A stretch of DNA of 64,000 nt from Hydrogenophaga intermedia (GTDB lineage Bacteria; Pseudomonadota; Gammaproteobacteria; Burkholderiales; Burkholderiaceae_C), in the NCBI RefSeq assembly GCF_000723405.1, contig NZ_CCAE010000005.1:62001-126000 (forward strand), read 5' to 3'. Shown in pieces: positions 15,077 through 32,584 of this stretch. How positions within the stretch are numbered: the first letter of the stretch is position 1; the number at the start of each line of letters is the position of its first letter. Made by a program: the position numbers and the translations under genes. Below the pieces are notes generated by a model. It had not been told where the DNA came from. It saw only the letters and a list, made by a program, of their open reading frames with translations, and ran no database searches.

Positions 15077-15344
15077 TCTAGCGAGCGCGCCCCACCCCCG
15101 ATGCCGTCCGGGACACCGCCGGTTGGCCGGGCGGTGGATACCGCCAGGGACTATTGTGAGGCCCGGCAGAACCGGCCATGCGTCAAGCAGCGCACGCAAA
15201 GCCGGTCAAATTCCGTCGATCGGCCGGCGGCAACGCCATGCTTGCCGTTGCGCCGGCCACACCAGTCGGCGGTGTCCGAGCAGCGGGCACGCCGATTGCC
15301 CGGCAGTTCCCGTATGCCCCGCCAACCCCTGCCGTGGACGCCCC

Positions 15345-16802: not shown

Positions 16803-16814
16803 TCCTTGCACAAG

Positions 16815-19625
16815 ATGAACCCGAAGCAGTACCGTCAGGAGATGTCGAATGTCCAACGATACGCCATCGCCTTGTTGATCGCGATGGTGGCCGGCGGCCT
16901 GCATTGGCTGCTGTGGCCCGCCGTGGGAGCGCTGCGCGCCTTCGTGTTCTACCTGCCGGCGGTGGCCGCGGCGGCGGCGGCCCTGGGGCCGGGGCCCGGC
17001 ACGCTGCTGCTGTTCGTGGGCGCCATCGGCACAGGCTGGCCGCTGGGCGGGCTGGACGAATGGCCTCAGGCCCACCTGGCCGACCCCACGCGTCTGGTGC
17101 TCTACCTCGTGCTCGGCGGACTGCTGGTGGGCATGGGTGCTTCGCTGCGGCGCAATCGGGCTCGGGCGGTGTCGGCCGAGGACCGACTGATGATGGCCAT
17201 CGAGGGCACGGGCATCGGCGTGTTCGACATCGACCTTGCCGCTCGCACCATCAGCGCCTCCCCCGCGCTGGCCCGTCTGGCCGGCGCACCGGTGTCACCG
17301 GACCCCGTGCCGCTGGACGCCTGGACGGCCCGCCTGCCGCCCCAACTGCTGCTCGACAGCCGGGAGCACCTGCGGCAGAAGCTCAAACAGGGTGCCACCT
17401 TTTACGAGCGCGAAGTTCCCCTGCCGTCGCCGGAGGGCGGCGACCACCGCGTGCTGCTGCGCGTGCACGTGGTCTGGCGTGGCACGCGGGCCGTGCGCCT
17501 GCGCGGCGCCTGCGTGGACATCACCGAGCGCAAACAGGTGCATGCGCAGCTCGCGGCCACGCGCGGCCAGCTCAACCAGCAATTCGACGACCTCAACCAG
17601 CTGCACGAGCTGAGCTCGCAACTGCCCGAGACGACCGACATCGCCCGGCAATTGCACATGATCCTGGCCACGCTGGCGCACTTTCACGGCGCGCACCAGG
17701 GCATGGTGTCGCTGCTCGACCCCCTCACCGACGAATTGCGCATCGCGGCCAGCCTGGGATTCGATGCCACGGCACTGGCCACGGCGCAGCGCCTGAGCGA
17801 CGGGCCCTGCGCCCAAACCTGCCGCCAGCGCACGCGCACGACGCTGGAGGACACGCAGACGGCCCCGATGGACGATGAGTGCCGCGGGTTCCTGGCGGCC
17901 CACGCCATCCGGGCCGTGCACAGCACGCCGCTCATCAGTTCACAGGGGGAGGTGCTGGGCGCGATCACCGTGCACCTGGGCGAGCCGCGCCACCCCACCG
18001 AACGCGAATGCCGCCTGGCCGATATCTGCGCCCGCAAGGCGACCGTGTTCATCGAACGCACCCGCGCCCGAGACGAACTGCTCGTCTCGCAAGGGCGATT
18101 CGAAGCCGTGCTCGAAACCTCGGGCGCACCCTTCGTGATCCTCAAGCCCCTGCACCAGGGCGAGCGCATCGTCGACTTCCTGTGGATGTACGTCAACCGC
18201 GCCGCTGCCGAGGCGCTGGAGTGCACCCCGGAGCAACTGGTGGGCCACCGAGTGCTGCACTCCTCGCCCTGCCGCTGGATGGGCAACCCCGCCTTCAGCT
18301 ACTGCGTGCAGGCCGTCGAGTCCCACACCATCTGCGAGTTCGACACCACCGACACCCAGGGCGCGGACACGCGCTGGTTCCACTGCATCGCCTCGCCCAT
18401 TCCCGAAGGCGTGGGCGTGTGGTTCACCGACATCTCCGAGCGCATGCGCAACGAACAGTTGCTGCGCGACAGCGACCGCCGCAAGGACGAGTTTCTCGCC
18501 ACGCTGGCGCACGAACTGCGCAACCCGCTTGCACCGATCCGCCAAGCGACGCTGCTGGCCATGTCGCCGCACGCCACGGACGCGCAGAAGCAGTGGAGCT
18601 GCGAAGTGATCGACCGCCAGGTCTCGCACATGGCCCTGCTGCTGGACGACCTGCTCGACGTCTCGCGCATCACGCGCGGCGCGCTGCCGCTGCGCCGCGC
18701 GCCCACCGACCTGGCCAATGTGCTCGCCTCGGCCGTCGAGACCGTTCGACCGCTGATCGACGCCAAGGGCCACCAGTTGCTGATCGACGTCGACGAAACA
18801 CCCGTCGTCTTTGACGCCGACCCGCTGCGCCTGGCGCAGGTGGTGGCCAACCTGCTGACCAATGCGGCCAAGTACACCGACCCAGGCGGCACCCTCGGAC
18901 TGCGGGCCGGTCGGCGCGACGGTGTCATCACCATCGAGGTGCGCGACAACGGCATCGGCATTCCGCCCGAGGCGATTCCCGACGCGTTCCGCATGTTTGC
19001 GCAGTTGCACCACGCGGGCGATCGCACGAGCGGCGGCCTGGGCATCGGTCTGGCCCTGTCCAAGGGCCTGGTAGAGCTGCACGGAGGCACCCTCACCGCC
19101 AGCAGCGAGGGCCCCGGCCGCGGCAGCGTGTTCACCGTGCAACTGCCTGCGGGCGAGGACGCCTCGGCCAGCCCGACACCCACCGGCCCCACCGCCGCAC
19201 CCCGGCGTCGGCGCCTGCGCGTGCTCATCGCCGACGACAACCGCGACGCGTCCGACACGCTGGCCGCGCTGTTGCAGGTGCAGGGCCACGACGTGCGCAT
19301 GGCCTACGACGGCGACCAGGCCCTGGCGCTGTGGCGCGAGGAGCGTCCCGACGTCTGCCTGCTCGACATCGGCATGCCCGGGCGCACCGGGCATCAGGTG
19401 GCACGCGAGATCCGCCGCTCGCGCGGTGGCGAACTGGCGCTGCTGGTGGCCGTGACGGGCTGGAGCCAGTTGCACGACCGCGAACTCGCGCTGGAGGCCG
19501 GCTTCGACATGCACTTGACCAAGCCCGTGAGTCCGGCGCAGCTCAGCCACTTGCTCGACAACATGGTGAAGCCGCTCACCCACCCGGCCGACGCAGCCTC
19601 CGCGAGCGGCGTCGCCCGCCCGTGA
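16815..19625 (+). CDS. Hybrid sensor histidine kinase/response regulator (DUF4118-PAS-GAF-PAS-HisKA-HATPase-REC)
   Basis: A 936-aa inner-membrane sensor. Residues ~12-110 hold three to four membrane helices of DUF4118/KdpD type. A PAS-like region (~125-240), a GAF domain (~255-400) and a second PAS (~415-545) follow. The H-box LAHELRNPLAP has His566. The N-box LLTNAAKYTDPGG and the DNGIGIP and GGLGIGLAL glycine boxes are intact, so it should be an active kinase. The C-terminal receiver has Asp851 (CLLDIGMPG) and Lys in LTKPV. An ATG at 16815 is used; a TTG at 16806 is an alternative. Likely partner of the sigma-54 activator at 20050. Confidence 0.9.
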   Translation: MNPKQYRQEMSNVQRYAIALLIAMVAGGLHWLLWPAVGALRAFVFYLPAVAAAAAALGPGPGTLLLFVGAIGTGWPLGGLDEWPQAHLADPTRLVLYLVLGGLLVGMGASLRRNRARAVSAEDRLMMAIEGTGIGVFDIDLAARTISASPALARLAGAPVSPDPVPLDAWTARLPPQLLLDSREHLRQKLKQGATFYEREVPLPSPEGGDHRVLLRVHVVWRGTRAVRLRGACVDITERKQVHAQLAATRGQLNQQFDDLNQLHELSSQLPETTDIARQLHMILATLAHFHGAHQGMVSLLDPLTDELRIAASLGFDATALATAQRLSDGPCAQTCRQRTRTTLEDTQTAPMDDECRGFLAAHAIRAVHSTPLISSQGEVLGAITVHLGEPRHPTERECRLADICARKATVFIERTRARDELLVSQGRFEAVLETSGAPFVILKPLHQGERIVDFLWMYVNRAAAEALECTPEQLVGHRVLHSSPCRWMGNPAFSYCVQAVESHTICEFDTTDTQGADTRWFHCIASPIPEGVGVWFTDISERMRNEQLLRDSDRRKDEFLATLAHELRNPLAPIRQATLLAMSPHATDAQKQWSCEVIDRQVSHMALLLDDLLDVSRITRGALPLRRAPTDLANVLASAVETVRPLIDAKGHQLLIDVDETPVVFDADPLRLAQVVANLLTNAAKYTDPGGTLGLRAGRRDGVITIEVRDNGIGIPPEAIPDAFRMFAQLHHAGDRTSGGLGIGLALSKGLVELHGGTLTASSEGPGRGSVFTVQLPAGEDASASPTPTGPTAAPRRRRLRVLIADDNRDASDTLAALLQVQGHDVRMAYDGDQALALWREERPDVCLLDIGMPGRTGHQVAREIRRSRGGELALLVAVTGWSQLHDRELALEAGFDMHLTKPVSPAQLSHLLDNMVKPLTHPADAASASGVARP

Positions 19626-19649: not shown

Positions 19650-19871
19650 TCACGACGCGGGCGGGTCGCGCAGCGGCTGGCCGCCCTCGCCTTCCCAGCG
19701 CTCCAGTGCCGGCGGCTTGGCCGCCGGCCGCGCGGCGTTCGCGCGGCGTCGGCCAAGCTCGCGATAACCCGTCCAGGCCTGCCACAGCACCAGGCCCACG
19801 GCCGCCAGCATCAGCCTGTTGCCGCCGCGCGAGCCTCGGCGCACCGGGCTTGCAGCCTTCGCATGTTTCAT
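19650..19871 (-). CDS. Small single-pass membrane protein
   Basis: A 73-aa protein. It has a Lys/Arg-rich N-terminus (KHAKAASPVRRGSRGG), one membrane helix (LMLAAVGLVLWQAWTGY, about residues 20-36), then a basic stretch and a Pro/Glu tail. A GGAGG ribosome site lies nine bases before the ATG, and a near-consensus sigma-54 promoter sits 30-45 bases upstream, which argues that it is real. It is divergent from the sigma-54 activator gene. No family recognised. Confidence 0.6.
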   Translation of the reverse strand: MKHAKAASPVRRGSRGGNRLMLAAVGLVLWQAWTGYRELGRRRANAARPAAKPPALERWEGEGGQPLRDPPAS

Positions 19872-19900
19872 GGCACGTCACCTCCGCAAATGCCATGCAG

Positions 19901-19916
19901 TGGCAACCGGCGTGCC
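19901..19916 (+). promoter_or_regulatory. Overlapping sigma-54-like element toward the sigma-54 activator gene
   Basis: The same DNA read on the plus strand is TGGCAACCGGCGTGCC, with GG (19902-19903) and GC (19914-19915) also ten bases apart and 8 of 12 consensus matches. It would start near 19927, giving a 123-base leader before the ATG at 20050. It is weaker than the minus-strand reading. Confidence 0.4.
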
Positions 19917-19917
19917 C
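19902..19917 (-). promoter_or_regulatory. Strong sigma-54 promoter toward the small membrane protein gene
   Basis: Read on the minus strand the element is GGGCACGCCGGTTGCC: GG (19916-19915) and GC (19904-19903) ten bases apart, with TTGC at -12, matching 10 of 12 defined consensus positions. It predicts a start near 19891, just ahead of the GGAGG ribosome site at 19885-19881. Confidence 0.65.
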
Positions 19918-20049
19918 GTGCACACATTTCGATACAGACATGCTCCTACACCGGCGCCCATCATGGCCCGTGACAATCGCCACACGAATCGCTCCTCACA
20001 CGCAGACCAACACACACACCGACACGCAGACCTCAAAGGGCCCGTTCCG

Positions 20050-21474
20050 ATGAACCACGTGCTGATCGTCGACGACGACACCGACTCCGCGACCACCCTG
20101 CGCGAACTCGTGCGCGCCGATGAGTTTTCGGTGGCCATCGCCCACACGCTGCGCGACGCGCGGCGCCAGATCGCCCTGCAAACGCCGGACCTGGTCCTGC
20201 TGGACCTGCAACTGCCCGACGGCAACGGCCTGGACCTGTTCTCCGATCCGCAGTTGGTCAGCGACACGGACATCGTGCTCGTCACCGGCCATGCGAGCCT
20301 GGACACGTCAATCGAGGCCATGCGCCGAGGCGCGGCCGACTACCTTGTCAAACCCATCGCCATGAAGCAGTTGCAGCGCGTGCTGTCGCGCTGTGGCGAA
20401 CGCACCGCGCCAACCGCGGCGGCCAATGCCGCGCGGGCCGCGCCGCGCGACCCGGGCGCCGAAAGCGGGCGCTTCGGCCTGATGTGGGGGCAGACCGCGC
20501 CCATGCGCCGGGTGTACCAGCAGATCCACCGGGTCGCGCCCACATCGGTGCCCGTGTTCGTCATGGGTGAAAGCGGCACCGGCAAGGAACTGGTGGCGCA
20601 GACGGTGCATGCGCTCAGCCGCCGTCGCGCCGGGCCCTGCCTGGCGGTGAACTGCGGTGCGATCTCACCCCACCTGATGGAAAGCGAGATCTTCGGCCAT
20701 GAAAAGGGCAGCTTCACTGGCGCCGACCGCCAGCACCTGGGCTTCTTCGAACGTGCCAGCGGCGGCACCCTCTTCCTCGACGAGATCACCGAGATGCCGC
20801 TGGACCTGCAGGTCAAGCTGCTGCGCGTGCTGGAAACCGGGCGTTTCATGCGCGTGGGTTCCACACAGAGCATCCAGACCGACGTGCGCATCATCGCCGC
20901 CACCAACCGCTTGCCCCTGGAGGCGGTGGCCGCGGGCAAGCTGCGCGAGGACCTGCTGTATCGGCTGAACGTGTTTCCGATCGAGCTGCCGCCGCTGCGG
21001 GAGCGGCTGGACGACGTGCCCCTGCTTGCGCAGCACTTTCTAGACGAGATCGCGAACCGCGAAGGACAGGTGAGGCGCTTTGAGCCCGCGGCGCTGCATC
21101 AGTTGGCACAGTACCCCTGGCCCGGCAACGTGCGCGAACTGCGCAACGCAGTGCAACGCGCCTACGTCATGGCCGACGGCGAAACCATCGACGCCTTGTG
21201 GCTGCCCAAGCCGCCCGCCACAGTGGCCGGCGACGCCGCGCCATCCACCCGCCGGGCCCTGCCCGAGCCCACCGCGCAGAACGGTGTGGGCGAACCCGTC
21301 ATCACCCTGCCTGTGGGCGTGTCGATGGCGCAGGCCGAACGCCTGCTGATCCAGGCCACCCTGCGCCAGTGCGAGCAACAGAAGGAGCGCACCGCCGCCG
21401 TGCTGGGCATCAGCCTGAAGACGCTCTACAACCGGCTCAAGGAATACGCGGGTGACTCGCCGTCGCGGCACTGA
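20050..21474 (+). CDS. NtrC-family sigma-54-dependent response regulator
   Basis: A 474-aa activator. The receiver domain (1-120) has acidic residues in IVDDDTD, the phospho-acceptor Asp52 (VLLDLQLPDG) and Lys in VKPI. The AAA+ domain has Walker A GESGTGKE at about 173, GSFTGA at about 220 (the sigma-54 contact loop, canonical GAFTGA) and Walker B TLFLDEITEMP. The C-terminal Fis-type helix-turn-helix includes RTAAVLGISLKTLYNRLKEY. It should bind upstream of, and remodel, RpoN promoters. Two hybrid kinases and an rpoN gene are neighbours, suggesting one circuit. The next gene starts inside its last codons. Confidence 0.95.
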   Translation: MNHVLIVDDDTDSATTLRELVRADEFSVAIAHTLRDARRQIALQTPDLVLLDLQLPDGNGLDLFSDPQLVSDTDIVLVTGHASLDTSIEAMRRGAADYLVKPIAMKQLQRVLSRCGERTAPTAAANAARAAPRDPGAESGRFGLMWGQTAPMRRVYQQIHRVAPTSVPVFVMGESGTGKELVAQTVHALSRRRAGPCLAVNCGAISPHLMESEIFGHEKGSFTGADRQHLGFFERASGGTLFLDEITEMPLDLQVKLLRVLETGRFMRVGSTQSIQTDVRIIAATNRLPLEAVAAGKLREDLLYRLNVFPIELPPLRERLDDVPLLAQHFLDEIANREGQVRRFEPAALHQLAQYPWPGNVRELRNAVQRAYVMADGETIDALWLPKPPATVAGDAAPSTRRALPEPTAQNGVGEPVITLPVGVSMAQAERLLIQATLRQCEQQKERTAAVLGISLKTLYNRLKEYAGDSPSRH

Positions 21475-22156: not shown

Positions 22157-22447
22157 TCAGCCTCGATCGGCCCGCGCCGCTCGTGGCGTCGTACCCTGGT
22201 TCATGTCGGTGCTGCTGCCGGGGCTTGTGCCCGTGGTGCCCTGATTGGTGCCGGCCGGCGGTGTCGTGCCCATGCCAGGCTGGGCGGGCGCTGCCGGCGG
22301 GCTGGTGTTCGGCATGGGCGCCTGCTGCGGGGATGCTGGCGGGGTCGGAGCCGGCGGCGGCGGGCTGGTCTGTGCCAGTGCGAAGCCCGATGCGATGAGG
22401 GCGGTGGCCGCCATCGCCAGGCGGATTCGGGTGAGCTTGCTGTCCAT
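22157..22447 (-). CDS. Small exported Pro/Thr/Gly-rich protein
   Basis: A 96-aa protein with an AGGAG ribosome site seven bases before the ATG. Residues 1-26 form a signal peptide (basic DSKLTRIR, hydrophobic core, cleavage at FALA-QT). The mature part is low-complexity and disordered, rich in Pro, Thr and Gly (PPPPAPTPPASPQQAPMP, then GTTGTSPGSSTDMNQGTT). It lies 32 bp after the PA2169-family coding segment, so it is probably the last gene of the kinase operon. No catalytic feature seen. Confidence 0.65.
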   Translation of the reverse strand: MDSKLTRIRLAMAATALIASGFALAQTSPPPPAPTPPASPQQAPMPNTSPPAAPAQPGMGTTPPAGTNQGTTGTSPGSSTDMNQGTTPRAARADRG

Positions 22448-22479: not shown

Positions 22480-22935
22480 TCAATCTGCCATGGCACGGGC
22501 CTGATCGCGCAGCGCCCTCACCTGCATGTGATTGCGCTTGGCGCCTTCGTACTGGCGCTCCACGACCACACGCACATCGGGTGGCAGGTCCTTGGCAAGC
22601 GCCTCGCGGTAGCGCTCGATCGCCACGTCCTCGCCACGCTCGGCCTCTTCGAGCATGTTGACGTCGCTGTAGCCCGCCAGCGTGCCCTTGACGGCCACCC
22701 AGCCCCGGTGCGCGGCACCGGCGACGGAGCCGTGGTCCTGCGCATTGCCCCCCAGTTGCACCACGAGGGCTTGCAACTCGGAAGCCGCCTGCTTGCACTC
22801 TTCGGCGCGGGCGGCGAAGACGCTTTGCAGATCCGCGGTGTGCAGGTGCTCGGCGGTGCGGCGAAAGCCGTACTCACCGTCCTTGCAGGTTTCGATGAGA
22901 TCGTTCAGACAATTGATCAGGGATTTCTGGTCCAT
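22480..22935 (-). CDS. PA2169-family four-helix-bundle protein (DUF2383-like), internal start or fused domain
   Basis: A 151-aa segment. Four amphipathic helices are visible (LINCLNDLIETCKDGEYGF, SVFAARAEECKQAASELQAL, VNMLEEAERGEDVAIERY, VRVVVERQYEGAKRNHMQVRAL), the ferritin-like arrangement of the PA2169/DUF2383 family. Members are normally independent stress-associated proteins of this length. An AGGA sits nine bases before the ATG at 22935, so separate translation is plausible even though the frame is also continuous with the hybrid kinase upstream. Confidence 0.75.
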   Translation of the reverse strand: MDQKSLINCLNDLIETCKDGEYGFRRTAEHLHTADLQSVFAARAEECKQAASELQALVVQLGGNAQDHGSVAGAAHRGWVAVKGTLAGYSDVNMLEEAERGEDVAIERYREALAKDLPPDVRVVVERQYEGAKRNHMQVRALRDQARAMAD

Positions 22936-24972
22936 GGCGGTGTGTCCTCGGTGTGGTTGAACGGAAGTCGCGCACGCAACACGTTTTGCACGCGGACAGC
23001 CCTGTGGGGCACATGGCGTGCCCGCCGCTCGCCACCGGTCCCTTGCCGGCTCACGCCGCAGCGCGGCGATCAGCACGGCGGGGGGGCAAGGTTTCCTCAG
23101 CACCGGAAAGTCGTCCCCCGGGCCGAGCGACGGCCCCTGCGCGCTGATCAACACCACATGCACCGCAGGCCAGCGCTGGCGCACCGTGCGAGCCAGGCCC
23201 AAGCCATCGAGCGCGCCGGGCATGTTCACGTCGCTCAGCAGCACGTCGACCGCGGGGCCGCGTTCAAGCCGATCCAGCGCCTGCCCGGCGTGCGCGGCGC
23301 GTTCCACCCGCGCACCCATGGTCTCCAGCATCGCCGCCGTGACGTCGCCCAGGGCCTCGTTGTCTTCGGTCAGCAGCACGCGCGCACGCAACGGCGGGCC
23401 ACCCGCCGGAACGGGCTCGCTCTCGCGCGCCTGAGGCGGCGCCACCGGCACCAGCGGCAACACCAGCGGCGCTGGATCTGTCTCCCGCGGCAGGCTCAGC
23501 GCCGCCGCCACGCCGGGGCCGTTGCCGCGCAGCGTGATGCTCAGGTAGCGCCCGGCGGGCAAGCCCGCCACCAGGGCTGGCGCGGCGCGCTCGGTGCCCA
23601 GGTGCACCCGACCACCGTCGGGCAGGGCCTCGCGTGCGTCGAGGGCCAGATCGACGATGGCCAGTTCGAGTGCGTCGGGGTCGGCGCGCACGCACAGCCC
23701 CTCGTCGGGCACGTCAATGCTCAGTTCGATGCGCCGGCCCAGCACCACGCCCAGCATTTCGCGCAGGTTCGGGAGCCAGTCATGCAGCGCCAGCGTGCGG
23801 GGCTGCGCGGGGCGTTGGCCGCCGAAACGCAGCAGTTGCCCCGTGAGCCGACTGGCCGCCTCCACGGCGCGCAGCGTGGCAGCTATCGGCATGGCCAGGG
23901 TGGGCTGCGTGGACTGGCGCTCCATCAAGTAAGCGCTGTTGCTGATCACCCCGAGCAGGTTGTTGAACTCGTGCGCCACTCGCGCGGTCAGGCGGCCCAG
24001 GGCCTGCACGCGCTCGCGGCCAGCGGCCAGCCGCTCCTCGCGGCGCGTGCGCGCCACCGTCGCGGCCAACTGGCGCCGCAGTTCGGCACGCGCCATCCAC
24101 AGCAGCGCGCCCGCCGCCAGCGCCAACAGCACGAAGGCGGCCAGCAGCCGCTGCGCGGGCGCCGATGCAAAGGCGGCGTCAAGCTGCGCGCGCGGCACGG
24201 TGGTGAGGGCGGTCCAGCCTTGCGGCGCACGGCTGAAGTACACGCGCAACGGCTCGCCGCCGACGCTGCGCAGCGCGAAGCGCCCCTCGGCGCGGCCCGC
24301 CAGGCTCTCGCGGACCCAGGCGTCGAGCGGACCGTCGCGGCTGCCCTGCGCTGCCGCTGGGTGGCGCAGTACCACCTGGCCGCGCGGATCCAGTAGCCAG
24401 GTGCTCCAGCCGGCATTCGGGGCGCGCTGTTCCATCAGCCGTCGCAGATCGGCCGGCGTCAACACCACCTTCAGGTTCATGAGGGGCCCGGTGCCCGAAC
24501 GGAACACCGGCTCCACCACCACCACGCCGGCGCCCTCGGGGCCGGATGCCGCCAGCGCGTGCACGCCCGCCGAGCGCCAAAGCGCGGCGCCGCCCGCGCC
24601 CAAGGAACGAGGTGGCGAGCCGGGCTGCCACCGGGTGTCGATCCAACGCACCGATTCGCTGACCAGCTCCACCGACACGGGCGAGCCCTGGATCGCACGC
24701 CTCACGGCCTGATCGAACGCCTCGCGCTCATGTTCGGTCAGGCGCGGCGCCTGGTCCAGCAAGGGCGATGCCGCCAGCGCGCGCGCAATGGCCCCGTAGC
24801 GCGTGAATTCACGATCGAGAGACAACGCCATCGTGCGTGCGCTGTCACCGCCCTGGCGGTCAAGCGCGACGTGACCGGTGCGCCAGGTGGCCCACACGCC
24901 CCAGGCGAGCGCACCTAACGCCGGCAGCATCAACACGAGCGCGATGAGGATCAGACGGAAGCGAATGGACAT
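22480..24972 (-). CDS. Hybrid histidine kinase-like protein with degenerate ATPase domain, reading through into a PA2169-family domain
   Basis: An 830-aa frame. The N-terminus has a membrane helix (FRLILIALVLMLPALGALAW), then a periplasmic sensor region to a second helix near residue 280. The H-box LTARVAHEFNNLLG holds His334. The ATP domain is degraded: N-box Asn is Asp (LALDAREALPDGG), the G1 Asp is Gly (RGNGPGV), and the lid and G2 box are missing. A complete receiver follows (LLTEDN, LLSDVNMPG, LRKPC). No stop comes after it; about 30 Cys/Arg-rich residues lead straight into the PA2169-family protein at residue 680. Real fusion and lost stop are both possible. Start chosen at ATG 24972; 25011 is an alternative. 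Confidence 0.75.
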   Translation of the reverse strand: MSIRFRLILIALVLMLPALGALAWGVWATWRTGHVALDRQGGDSARTMALSLDREFTRYGAIARALAASPLLDQAPRLTEHEREAFDQAVRRAIQGSPVSVELVSESVRWIDTRWQPGSPPRSLGAGGAALWRSAGVHALAASGPEGAGVVVVEPVFRSGTGPLMNLKVVLTPADLRRLMEQRAPNAGWSTWLLDPRGQVVLRHPAAAQGSRDGPLDAWVRESLAGRAEGRFALRSVGGEPLRVYFSRAPQGWTALTTVPRAQLDAAFASAPAQRLLAAFVLLALAAGALLWMARAELRRQLAATVARTRREERLAAGRERVQALGRLTARVAHEFNNLLGVISNSAYLMERQSTQPTLAMPIAATLRAVEAASRLTGQLLRFGGQRPAQPRTLALHDWLPNLREMLGVVLGRRIELSIDVPDEGLCVRADPDALELAIVDLALDAREALPDGGRVHLGTERAAPALVAGLPAGRYLSITLRGNGPGVAAALSLPRETDPAPLVLPLVPVAPPQARESEPVPAGGPPLRARVLLTEDNEALGDVTAAMLETMGARVERAAHAGQALDRLERGPAVDVLLSDVNMPGALDGLGLARTVRQRWPAVHVVLISAQGPSLGPGDDFPVLRKPCPPAVLIAALRREPARDRWRAAGTPCAPQGCPRAKRVACATSVQPHRGHTAMDQKSLINCLNDLIETCKDGEYGFRRTAEHLHTADLQSVFAARAEECKQAASELQALVVQLGGNAQDHGSVAGAAHRGWVAVKGTLAGYSDVNMLEEAERGEDVAIERYREALAKDLPPDVRVVVERQYEGAKRNHMQVRALRDQARAMAD

Positions 24973-25069
24973 CGGGAAACCATTCCAGAGGGGTCGCATC
25001 GGCCAGGGCAAATGGCGCGCCCCGCCCGCCGGGATTCGCGGGCAGCCTCATGCCGGCCGGCATCTTTTG

Positions 25070-25204: not shown

Positions 25205-25220
25205 CGGCACGGTGCTTGCA
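25205..25220 (+). promoter_or_regulatory. Near-consensus sigma-54 promoter of rpoN
   Basis: CGGCACGGTGCTTGCA matches the consensus TGGCACGNNNNTTGCA at 11 of 12 defined positions, with GG at 25206-25207 and GC at 25218-25219. The predicted start is near 25231, 46 bases before the ATG and upstream of the AAAGGAGG ribosome site (25265-25272). It implies that this sigma factor drives its own gene. Confidence 0.75.
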
Positions 25221-25276: not shown

Positions 25277-26737
25277 ATGGGACCGCAAATGCGCGCCGAG
25301 ATCCGGCCATCCCAAACCCTGTCGCCGCGCCTGCAACGGGCCGTGCAACTGCTGCAGATGCCGTCGTTGGACTTCGCGGCGCTGGTGCGCCAGAAGCTGG
25401 GCGAGAACCCCTTCCTCGAAGGCGAGGATGAGAGCGATGCGGCCGTCGACCCCCACGAAACGGGCCCGCTCGATGCGCGCGAGGACGAAGGCGAAGGCCC
25501 GGGCTCGGCCGCGCCCGAGGCGGCCAACACGGTCTGGGACGAGGGCGTGCGACGCGACGGCGCCGACGACCGCGACCTGTGGATGCAGGACGCGGTCAAC
25601 GGGTCGCGCGCGGCCAGCGACGGCGAGTTGTCGGCCATGGAGATGACCGCCAGCGAGACCACGCTGGCCATGCACCTGCACGGGCAACTCAACGTGATGG
25701 CGCTGACCGAGCGCGACCTGTGCCTGGCGCGGGGCGTCGTCGAATCGCTCGACGACGATGGCTACCTGCGCACGCCGCTGGAAGACATCGCGGACGTGAT
25801 CCCCTGCGAGCCCCCCGCCAGCGCACAGGACATGCTGGTGGCCCTGCGCCTGGTGCAGTCGCTGGAGCCCGCTGGCGTGGCCGCGCGCGGCGTGGGCGAA
25901 TGCCTGGCACTGCAGGTGCGGCAAATGGAGGACGGGCCATGCCGCGAACTGGCCGAGCGCATCGTGAACGAGCACCTGGACGCGCTCGCCGCGCGCGACA
26001 TTCCGGGCCTGGCCAGCGTGCTGCGCGTGCCGGCGGCGCGCGTGGAGGCGGTCGTCGATCGCATCCGCCACCTCGACCCCCGCCCCGGCTGGCGCGTGGG
26101 CAACTCGCGCATCGACTACGTGGTGCCCGACGTGATCGTGCGCCGCCAGCGTGGCCAGTGGTCGGTGCAGCTCAACCCCGCCGTGGTGCCCCGGGTGCGG
26201 CTGAACCAGGTCTATGCGGACCTGTTCCAACGCCACCGCTCGCGCCAGAACGGCGAGCTGGGCGAGCAACTGCAGGACGCGCGCTGGACCCTGCGCAACG
26301 TGGAGCAGCGCTTCGCCACCATCCTCGACGTGGCACAGGCCATCGTGCAGCGCCAGCGCCACTTCCTGGAGTTCGGCCCGATGGCGATGAAGCCGCTGGT
26401 GCTGCGCGAGATCGCCGAGGAGGTGGGCGTGCATGAGTCCACCGTCTCGCGCGTGACGAGCAACAAGCACATGGCCACACCGCTGGGTGTGTTCGAGCTG
26501 AAGTACTTCTTCTCGCGGCCCATGGTGAGCGCGGCGGGCAACGCCTGCTCGGGCACCGCCATCCGCGGCCTCATCGGCGACATCATCCAGGCCGAGGATT
26601 CAACGCGCCCGCTGTCGGACGCCGAGATCACGCGCCAACTCTCCACGCAGGGGCTGGTGGTGGCGCGCCGCACGGTCACCAAGTACCGGCAGTTGCTGCG
26701 CATCGAGCCCGTGGACAAGCGGCGGCGCCACGCCTGA
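25277..26737 (+). CDS. rpoN: RNA polymerase sigma-54 factor, probable second copy
   Basis: A 486-aa protein. Region I is Gln/Leu rich (SQTLSPRLQRAVQLLQMPSL, then GENPFLE). An acidic region II follows, then the core-binding region and the helix-turn-helix VLREIAEEVGVHESTVSRV with FELKYFFSRP. The C-terminal RpoN box is ARRTVTKYR, one residue from the canonical ARRTVAKYR. The ATG has AAAGGAGG four bases upstream. The standard Burkholderiales rpoN sits next to lptB/hpf-type genes; this one sits among kinases, an NtrC-type activator and stress genes, so it is probably a dedicated paralogue. A consensus sigma-54 promoter precedes it. Confidence 0.93.
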   Translation: MGPQMRAEIRPSQTLSPRLQRAVQLLQMPSLDFAALVRQKLGENPFLEGEDESDAAVDPHETGPLDAREDEGEGPGSAAPEAANTVWDEGVRRDGADDRDLWMQDAVNGSRAASDGELSAMEMTASETTLAMHLHGQLNVMALTERDLCLARGVVESLDDDGYLRTPLEDIADVIPCEPPASAQDMLVALRLVQSLEPAGVAARGVGECLALQVRQMEDGPCRELAERIVNEHLDALAARDIPGLASVLRVPAARVEAVVDRIRHLDPRPGWRVGNSRIDYVVPDVIVRRQRGQWSVQLNPAVVPRVRLNQVYADLFQRHRSRQNGELGEQLQDARWTLRNVEQRFATILDVAQAIVQRQRHFLEFGPMAMKPLVLREIAEEVGVHESTVSRVTSNKHMATPLGVFELKYFFSRPMVSAAGNACSGTAIRGLIGDIIQAEDSTRPLSDAEITRQLSTQGLVVARRTVTKYRQLLRIEPVDKRRRHA

Positions 26738-28461: not shown

Positions 28462-29715
28462 TCACATGTGTTCGATCATCACCTCGCCGAAGCCCGAGCA
28501 GCTCACCTGCATGGCGCCGTCCATGAGGCGCGCGAAATCGTAGGTGACTTTCTTGGACTGGATGGCCAGCTCCATCGACGCGATGATCAGGTCCGCGGCT
28601 TCCTTCCAGCCCATGTGGCGCAGCATCATCTCGGCCGACAGGATGCTAGAGCCAGGGTTCACGTAATCCTTGCCGGCGTATTTGGGTGCCGTGCCGTGCG
28701 TGGCTTCGAAGCAGGCGACGGAATCGCTCATGTTCGCGCCCGGGGCGATGCCGATGCCGCCTACCTGCGCCGCCACCGCGTCGGAGATGTAATCGCCGTT
28801 CAGGTTGAGCGTGGCGACCACCGCGTACTCGGCCGGACGCAGCAAGATCTGCTGCAGGAAAGCGTCGGCGATCACGTCCTTGATCACGATGTCGCGGCCG
28901 GTCTTCGGGTTCGGCAACCGGCACCACGGGCCACCATCGATCGGCTGCGCGCCGAACTCGCGCTGGGCCAGCGCGTAGCCCCACTCGCGAAAGCCCCCTT
29001 CGGTGAATTTCATGATGTTGCCCTTGTGCACGAGCGTCACGCTGGGCTTGTCGTGGTCGATGGCGTACTGGATCGCCTGGCGCACCAGGCGCTCGGTGCC
29101 TTCGATGGACACGGGCTTGACGCCGATGGCCGAGGTCTCGGGGAAACGGATCGTGGTCACGCCCATTTCCTCCTGCAGGAAGCGGATGAGCTTGCGCGCC
29201 TTGTCCGAGCGCGCCTCGTACTCGATGCCGGCGTAGATGTCTTCCGAGTTCTCGCGGAAGATCGCCATGTTGGTCTTGTGCGGCTCCTTCAAGGGCGAGG
29301 GCACGCCCTTGAAGTAGCGCACTGGGCGCAGGCACACGTACAGGTCCAGCGCCTGGCGCAGGGTCACATTGAGGGAACGGAAGCCACCGCCCACCGGCGT
29401 GGTCAGGGGGCCCTTGATGGACACCGCGTAATCGCGGAGCGCGGCGACGGTCTCGTCGGGCAGCCAGACGCCGGGGCCGTACAACTTGACCGCCTTCTCG
29501 CCCGCGTACACCTCCATCCAGTGGATCTTGCGGCGCCCGCCGTAGGCCTTGGCCACCGCGGCATCCACCACCTTGAGCATCACCGGCGTCACGTCCACGC
29601 CCACGCCGTCGCCTTCGATGTACGGCACGATCGGCTCGTCGGGCACCTGCAGGGACAAGTCGTCGCGGACGGTGATCTTCTGGCCTTGCGGGGGCACCTG
29701 GATGTGCTGTGGCAT
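28462..29715 (-). CDS. icd: NADP-dependent isocitrate dehydrogenase, dimeric type
   Basis: A 417-aa TCA-cycle enzyme that oxidatively decarboxylates isocitrate to 2-oxoglutarate in the cytoplasm. Supporting motifs are [22 protein letters not shown] (with Ser114 at the position phosphorylated in E. coli), [11 protein letters not shown] and the family signature in [20 protein letters not shown]. Length equals E. coli Icd. A second, unrelated monomeric IDH is encoded 0.6 kb away, so the cell carries both isozymes. Confidence 0.96.

Positions 29716-30343: not shown

Positions 30344-32584
<2,241 letters not shown>

Follow-up and report, generated by a model that had tools for sequence, protein, structure and literature searches.

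Fused Reading Frame and Its Junction

In the genome of Hydrogenophaga intermedia, a kinase gene runs without a stop codon into a gene of the PA2169 family, which raises the question of whether the two are made as one protein, whether the second is still made by itself, or whether both products arise. The frame concerned (24972..22480 on the minus strand of the window, as we call the whole 64-kb stretch of DNA that was analysed) translates into 830 residues with one terminal stop and passes from a kinase-receiver to a PA2169-family domain with no stop in between. The observation behind the original prediction is thus confirmed, with matches to both Response_reg and TIGR02284 in the same frame; the interpretation given to it is partly supported.

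The fused ORF (22480..24972, minus strand, 830 aa) comprises a sensor flanked by two long helices at its N-terminus, which we read as membrane helices, a DHp region, a lid-less remnant of an ATPase domain, a receiver (Response_reg in Pfam, residues 532-613), a linker and the PA2169 domain (DUF2383/TIGR02284 in Pfam and NCBIfam, residues 686-822). Residues 1-645 (23038..24972, minus strand) represent the ancestral kinase-receiver part, the equivalent gene ending near position 23038 in most relatives. Residues 646-679 are open, and the PA2169 Met is found at residue 680 (ATG at 22935-22933), just where its start had been placed. The ribosome-site-like AGGA noted at the same time is present as well, 9 nt upstream of the ATG (22945..22948, minus strand, read from 22948 to 22945).

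Since the genome is 68% GC, an open junction is statistically unsurprising: at the base composition of the junction, 34 open codons are expected with p = 0.48, and with p of about 0.16 if the right frame is also asked for, and 17 of 28 other loci likewise have no stop in the PA2169 frame over the 102 nt upstream of PA2169. What is unusual about the fused ORF is the combination of a kinase without a stop and an in-frame position, seen at 1 of 29 distinct loci. A base-calling slip or frameshift in the C7 run, which lies where the receiver ends, was considered and rejected; the receiver aligns there residue for residue with its relatives.

Of the first full-length structure model, which was built on a poor mixed alignment, only the PA2169 and linker parts were used. 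The linker (residues 639-676) has pLDDT values below 50, while those of the PA2169 bundle are mostly above 90 with a dip at residues 741-770.

Stop Codon of the Kinase Gene in Related Loci

We examined 67 Hydrogenophaga genomes, including that of the window. A PA2169 gene is present in 16 of them and, besides the window, lies directly behind a kinase in 10. When named genomes and family genomes were taken together with those of the genus, a kinase-receiver was found to end less than 600 nt upstream of PA2169 at 38 loci; removal of nine duplicates left 29 distinct kinase-PA2169 loci, among them loci of Hydrogenophaga, Pelomonas, Roseateles, Mitsuaria and Rubrivivax. The in-frame fusion occurs in the window alone. 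At 27 of the 28 other loci the genes are separate, and at the remaining one (G005) they overlap out of frame, so that, compared with relatives, the window kinase has lost its stop, as had been supposed.

The comparison of orthologues that the original prediction recommended reveals a graded series in the closest clade: the kinase stop is kept at its old place directly after the receiver in G032 and falls within the promoter element described below in G003; in G005, a single-contig genome, the kinase ORF enters PA2169 out of frame and ends 19 nt inside it; in the window, the two are fused in frame. The window and its sister species may thus be regarded as two neighbouring genes caught while fusing. 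Overall, the kinase ORF extends into the promoter element at 7 of the 28 other loci. The PA2169 frame relative to that of the kinase varies (0 in the window, 1 in G003, 2 in G032 and G005), from which it follows that the spacer has changed length as noncoding DNA does. Since the stop has drifted more than once in this clade, the loss in the window is likely real. A stop in relatives together with a sequencing error here had been named as what would undo the prediction; 27 of the 28 other loci do have such a stop, but its drift in sister species speaks against a simple error.

At 18 loci with long open frames (two of which, L187 and L205, are the same place), the 260 residues preceding PA2169 were also inspected by eye, and neither a kinase nor a receiver in frame with PA2169 was seen there. 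At the kinase loci L174 and L183 the long frame seems to run through the kinase region out of the kinase's own frame. Gly-rich extensions precede PA2169 at 12 of the 18; in other Burkholderiales the domain likewise forms the C-terminal part of a longer frame, joined there to a Gly-rich stretch, presumably a glycine zipper, instead of a receiver or kinase.

A Conserved σ54-Type Promoter Sequence within the Linker

The stretch between the receiver and PA2169 had been taken for former intergenic DNA. The linker does derive from intergenic DNA; it is not merely former, however, and holds a conserved σ54-type promoter sequence and a leader, which the original prediction missed. On the basis of conservation and position we recognise a −24/−12 sequence of PA2169, GGGCACGCCATGTGCCC, at 23007..23023 (minus strand), with the GG at 23022-23021 and the GC at 23010-23009. 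Transcription of PA2169 is predicted to start at about 22997, which would give a leader of ca. 62 nt. Since the element and the leader are located there, the Cys/Arg-rich stretch of the linker can be understood as translated promoter and leader.

In an alignment of 11 junctions of the genus (the window and 10 others), the positions GG-AC-CC---TGCC are among the few invariant columns upstream of the PA2169 start. The consensus of σ54 promoters is TGGCACG-N4-TTGCW. As measured against this consensus, the PA2169 element has the GG and GC twelve bases apart and the conserved flanks of a σ54 promoter, and we take it to be a promoter of this type that is probably active. The element is found 72-97 nt upstream of the PA2169 ATG in 16 of 16 Hydrogenophaga genes, as counted with a search expression written after the junctions had been viewed. 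Five of these genes have no kinase directly upstream, which indicates that the element belongs to PA2169.

At the kinase-linked loci, a σ54-type site is located 53–97 nt upstream of PA2169 in 29 of 29 cases. With GG and GC required, a search region of −130 to −35 and this consensus, the best score was at least 8 at all 29 loci, at least 9 at 20 and 10 at 6, against means of 3.6, 0.9 and 0.1 for shuffled sequences. When PA2169 regions were considered with duplicates dropped, 40 of 92 scored 9 and 8 scored 10, against means of 4.0 and 0.5 after shuffling. Scores of at least 9 were reached in the forward direction by 55 of 106 regions, duplicate loci included, and in the reverse complement by 23 of 106; the element is nearly palindromic, which makes the direction of the promoter less certain. 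The window's own PA2169 site scores 9 of 12. Since both strands of the window contain 240 sites scoring at least 8, 65 at least 9, 11 at least 10 and one scoring 11, the weight of the PA2169 site comes from its conservation and position.

When a de novo search by expectation maximisation was run on 59 regions from beyond the genus (after removal of Hydrogenophaga, the listed duplicates, near-identical regions and any PA2169 copy of less than 50% identity), it returned the σ54-like motif CGGGCACG-N4-Y-TGCY, in which GG, T and GC reach 0.94-0.99 and the middle is weak. Its log-likelihood was 293 (120 starts) compared to 53, 55 and 56 for three shuffled sets (40 starts each). The motif exceeded 11 bits in 39 of the 59 regions, came near 8.6 bits in two and was not clear in 18.

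Two other readings of the element were rejected. Of the 67 genomes of the genus, 7 each hold a single copy of the exact 17-base pattern, always just upstream of PA2169 (the reversed-pattern control gave 0), which does not agree with a regulon-wide site of exactly this sequence. An RNA hairpin, GGGCAC-N5-GTGCCC, gave way to the DNA promoter reading since the right arm varies outside the genus (TTGCT or CTGCC), GG and GC being constant.

Degeneration of the Kinase ATPase Domain

The kinase part carries lesions of its ATPase domain, likewise missed before, that can be read directly from the alignment with relatives. The window kinase lacks 39 residues (117 nt) present in relatives, with the F box, the lid and the G2 box, and the deletion is in frame; its surroundings are residues 481-500 (23473..23532, minus strand). 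In the alignment of 29 members, the near-invariant N441 and N445 of the N box and D483 of G1 are replaced in the window by Asp, Asp and Gly. A Pfam scan found HATPase_c in 28 of 29 kinases (four members being cut short at the locus end) and missed it in the window alone, where the fused ORF gave no HATPase_c match up to an E value of 1. An HATPase_c domain with its N, G1, F and G2 boxes is thus not what the window kinase has. Its HisKA match of 18.9 bits lies under the cut-off of 26.9, though the near-invariant His334 is present. In a model of the kinase part (pTM 0.47), the ATPase sheet is kept and the stretch of the lid and G2 is missing.

The receiver, in contrast, scores 46.5 bits against a cut-off of 30.2, D581 and K627 fall in invariant columns, and its blocks mostly have pLDDT values of 87-95 in the kinase-part model. 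The best partial matches in NCBIfam, all far under the curated cut-offs, are to PRK13557, CckA and VirA-like kinases, which share the kinase core and in some cases the receiver; compared to them the ATPase domain of the window kinase is degenerate. The protein had been called a hybrid kinase. The receiver with its Asp and Lys bears this out, but with the F and G2 boxes and key residues of the N box and G1 gone from the ATP-binding domain, the kinase is very probably not active and is probably unable to autophosphorylate. The receiver retains the phosphorylation residues and could accept phosphate from another kinase.

One may ask whether this draft alone lacks the stop codon, the 117 nt of the ATPase domain or both, as an artefact of assembly or sequencing. 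The genome is a draft in 124 contigs, one assembly of the species was compared, and both the stop loss and the ATPase gap are unique to it among the 29 loci. On the other hand, both changes preserve the frame, three separate base-level changes affect near-invariant ATPase residues outside the deletion, and the ordinary stop position has also been lost in the sister species G003 and G005, the latter a single contig. We consider an artefact very unlikely.

According to another reading, the kinase part is a decaying gene, only free PA2169 is made from the σ54 promoter, and the fused frame never yields a meaningful product. The ATPase deletion and the changes in the N box and G1 are in line with this, as are the residues unique to the window when it is compared with two sister species (12 in the DHp region, where they have 1 and 6; 10 in the ATPase part, where they have 6 and 4). 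Decay does not, however, easily account for 1,935 nt of kinase frame that are still open, a deletion that is in frame, a receiver that keeps its phosphorylation residues, or a sensor without any excess of unique residues (10 in the window, 10 and 12 in the sister species). The dN/dS of the kinase part, 0.24-0.53 relative to G003 and G032, resembles the 0.29-0.77 between these two genomes themselves, and selection on the kinase part does not look absent. Simple decay is, in our judgement, unlikely.

The PA2169-Family Domain

The PA2169-family gene itself (22480..22935, minus strand, 151 aa) is the sole TIGR02284 match found in this genome, with an E value of 7.5e-41 and 139.7 bits (curated cut-off 44.8) over model positions 2-139 of 139. 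Its dN/dS of 0.08 relative to G003 and G032 points to strong constraint. P. aeruginosa PA2169, which was crystallised free-standing (PDB 4etr), is described as a four-helix bundle that is akin to the ferritin-like modules and lacks the iron site of ferritin; attempts to demonstrate metal binding are reported to have failed (PMC3539698). The window protein shares the family and the Glu-Asp-His triad of 4etr (the E and D of ERGED align, as does the second His). It lacks the Cys pair of the Cys30-Cys101 disulfide, having Thr and Ala at the aligned places; this disulfide is not known to define the family.

In the data reported for P. aeruginosa, PA2169 RNA rises 14- and 24-fold upon inhibition of lipoprotein transport, and PA2167-PA2173 are induced as a group that the authors tie to envelope stress (PMC7685553). 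A PA2169-family gene of a marine bacterium is listed as strongly changed between 0 and 15 °C (PMC10134870). By analogy, an envelope-stress role for the family may be guessed at. Two reports come near to σ54 control. In a network study of P. aeruginosa, PA2169 was regrouped after an RpoN roadblock (PMC5655620). The Vibrio parahaemolyticus DUF2383 gene VP0095 belongs to a co-regulated cluster, VP0091-VP0102, that includes a "sigma-54 interacting response regulator"; unlike for the window locus, neither a kinase fusion nor a σ54 promoter is stated in the portions of the report available to us (PMC7859628). In the accessible text of the literature naming PA2169 or DUF2383, we found no statement that such a gene is under σ54 control.

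The constraint on the PA2169 domain, together with its being the sole copy found in the genome, bears on a further possibility, namely that selection has favoured the fusion, in which a membrane-anchored receiver with a dead kinase would switch the PA2169 bundle and take its phosphate from another kinase, e.g., the one encoded at 16806-19625. Loss of the ATPase and of the stop in the same gene and lineage and the completeness of the receiver would also be expected if this were so. The fusion is nevertheless found at 1 of 29 loci, its linker is modelled at low confidence and drifts in length like noncoding DNA, the σ54 element and the ribosome site are kept, and the drift of the stop in sister species gives ends that are not fused. 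A selected fusion therefore seems to us quite unlikely.

Proposed Origin and Products of the Locus

The explanation that we favour, with a slight lean in its direction, is that the stop was lost by drift while the σ54 promoter and the ribosome site still work, free PA2169 being the main product, the fusion a by-product and the sensor kinase-dead. The ancestor would have had a hybrid kinase gene followed, ca. 100-150 nt downstream, by PA2169, which had a σ54 promoter to itself. The kinase stop would then have been lost in this species, and the kinase ORF now traverses the promoter and leader into PA2169, the GC-rich leader being open and in frame by chance. With the σ54 holoenzyme and an activator active, the internal promoter would yield the free 151-aa PA2169; kinase transcripts would additionally yield an 830-aa, presumably membrane-anchored receiver-PA2169 fusion, probably a tolerated by-product, whose dead kinase half would leave a receiver open to phosphorylation by another kinase. 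Of the two outcomes originally proposed, a fusion alone or a fusion plus free PA2169, the second is thus the best reading of the sequence, if by a modest preference. Counting against the internal start is that the ribosome site within the frame could be hidden by ribosomes coming from the kinase. We may be dealing with two genes that merge into one, the second of which seems to retain control of its own.

Comparable cases are the E. coli pairs nagB/nagE and yqeC/yqeB, which have separate frames; unlike in these, the outer frame in the window continues into the gene served, and the site is intergenic in most relatives. As far as the E. coli report goes, which includes a table of σ54 motifs, there is proof of intragenic σ54 promoters that serve the following gene, and, as we propose for the window, a conserved promoter within one gene (nagB, yqeC) drives the next (nagE, yqeB), with leaders of 360-760 nt for intragenic promoters compared to the ca. 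62 nt predicted here (PMC4591121).

σ54-Related Genes around the Locus

A second gene for RpoN, the σ54 factor (25277..26737, plus strand, 486 aa), is divergent from the kinase gene. It encodes AID, core-binding and DNA-binding domains, and all three Pfam domains exceed the cut-off. The other of the two RpoN genes in the genome lies on contig 6, and its product is 37% identical. The window's only site scoring 11, CGGCACGGTGCTTGCA (25205..25220, plus strand), stands before this second rpoN. Sites of score 9-11 are found within 260 nt before this rpoN at 23 of 26 loci, some of which are near-identical; two loci have no σ54 site, and one was unscorable due to a misplaced start. Given this distribution, the second rpoN is probably itself under σ54 control.

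Downstream of the fused gene sit a response regulator and a complete hybrid kinase. The former (19819..21474, plus strand; ORF limits, the true start being later) is σ54-dependent by its domains (receiver, σ54 interaction AAA+, HTH_8), and the latter (16806..19625, plus strand, ORF limits) has GAF, PAS, HisKA, HATPase_c and receiver domains. Transcription from a σ54 promoter calls for RpoN and an activator ATPase, and a gene for each is present near the fused frame.

A σ54-like site of score 9, GGGCGCGCCATTTGCCC, lies ca. 34 nt upstream of the kinase ATG (25006..25022, minus strand) and is weakly supported. Within 300 nt upstream of the kinase, sites of score 9-10 are found in the window, at 4 of 9 other Hydrogenophaga loci and at 2 of 4 Pelomonas loci; 4 further Hydrogenophaga loci have a score of 8, which is near the chance level (compare the 240 window sites of at least 8), and 9 of the 11 remaining loci have no site of at least 8 in the 300 nt searched. 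These sites hint only weakly at σ54 control of the kinase gene.

These surroundings would allow a more elaborate arrangement, a two-form gene in which kinase-driven transcripts give a membrane-anchored, receiver-controlled PA2169 and σ54-driven transcripts the free form, the switch lying within a self-feeding σ54 island with a second rpoN transcribed by σ54. We regard it as speculative and rather improbable.

The neighbourhood of rpoN, kinase and PA2169 recurs in relatives, often with a σ54 activator, and this recurrence in Burkholderiales offers a testable regulator for the PA2169 family. For loci that extend 4 kb or more to each side of PA2169 (the window and duplicates excluded; edges may hide genes), a relative of the activator is present in the flank of 11 of 22 kinase-linked loci compared to 7 of 34 others, and a relative of rpoN in that of 17 of 22 compared to 6 of 34.

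An apparently σ54-dependent second rpoN

A near-perfect σ54 site (25205-25220, plus strand) lies ahead of the second rpoN gene (25277-26737), and sites scoring 9-11, out of a maximum of 12 for the match to the −24/−12 consensus, were found ahead of rpoN in 22 of the 25 other loci compared, some of which are near-identical. Apparently, this σ54 factor gene is itself transcribed by σ54 RNA polymerase.

The kinase and PA2169 in related genomes

The F box is also altered in the kinase of the sister Hydrogenophaga genome G003 (locus L042), where it reads FEPFFMAQ as opposed to FEPFFTTK or FEPFFSTK in most other aligned kinases; the ATPase domain of the G003 kinase is nevertheless complete. ATPase function may be in the course of being lost in the clade.

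In a second sister genome, G005, which is a single contig, the kinase (L044 7173-7296) has no stop ahead of PA2169, and the out-of-frame overlap between the kinase end and PA2169 is 19 nt.

In other Burkholderiales, a Gly-rich N-terminal part shares one frame with the PA2169 domain (L190, L192-L194, L196, L200-L202 and L206-L209). As read by eye, the Gly-rich part of these frames contains NRDP...GAHPxGTG.

Other features of the window

A σ54-like site scoring 10, GGGCACGCCGATTGCCC, is located at 15285-15301 (plus strand); a Pfam scan gave no match in the surrounding ORFs scanned. Directly behind the fused gene, 22157-22447 (minus strand) encodes a small protein that is rich in Pro and Thr and has a signal-like N terminus; a Pfam search gave no match for it. 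An Iso_dh-family gene (28462-29715) lies near that of monomeric isocitrate dehydrogenase (30344-32584), both on the minus strand.
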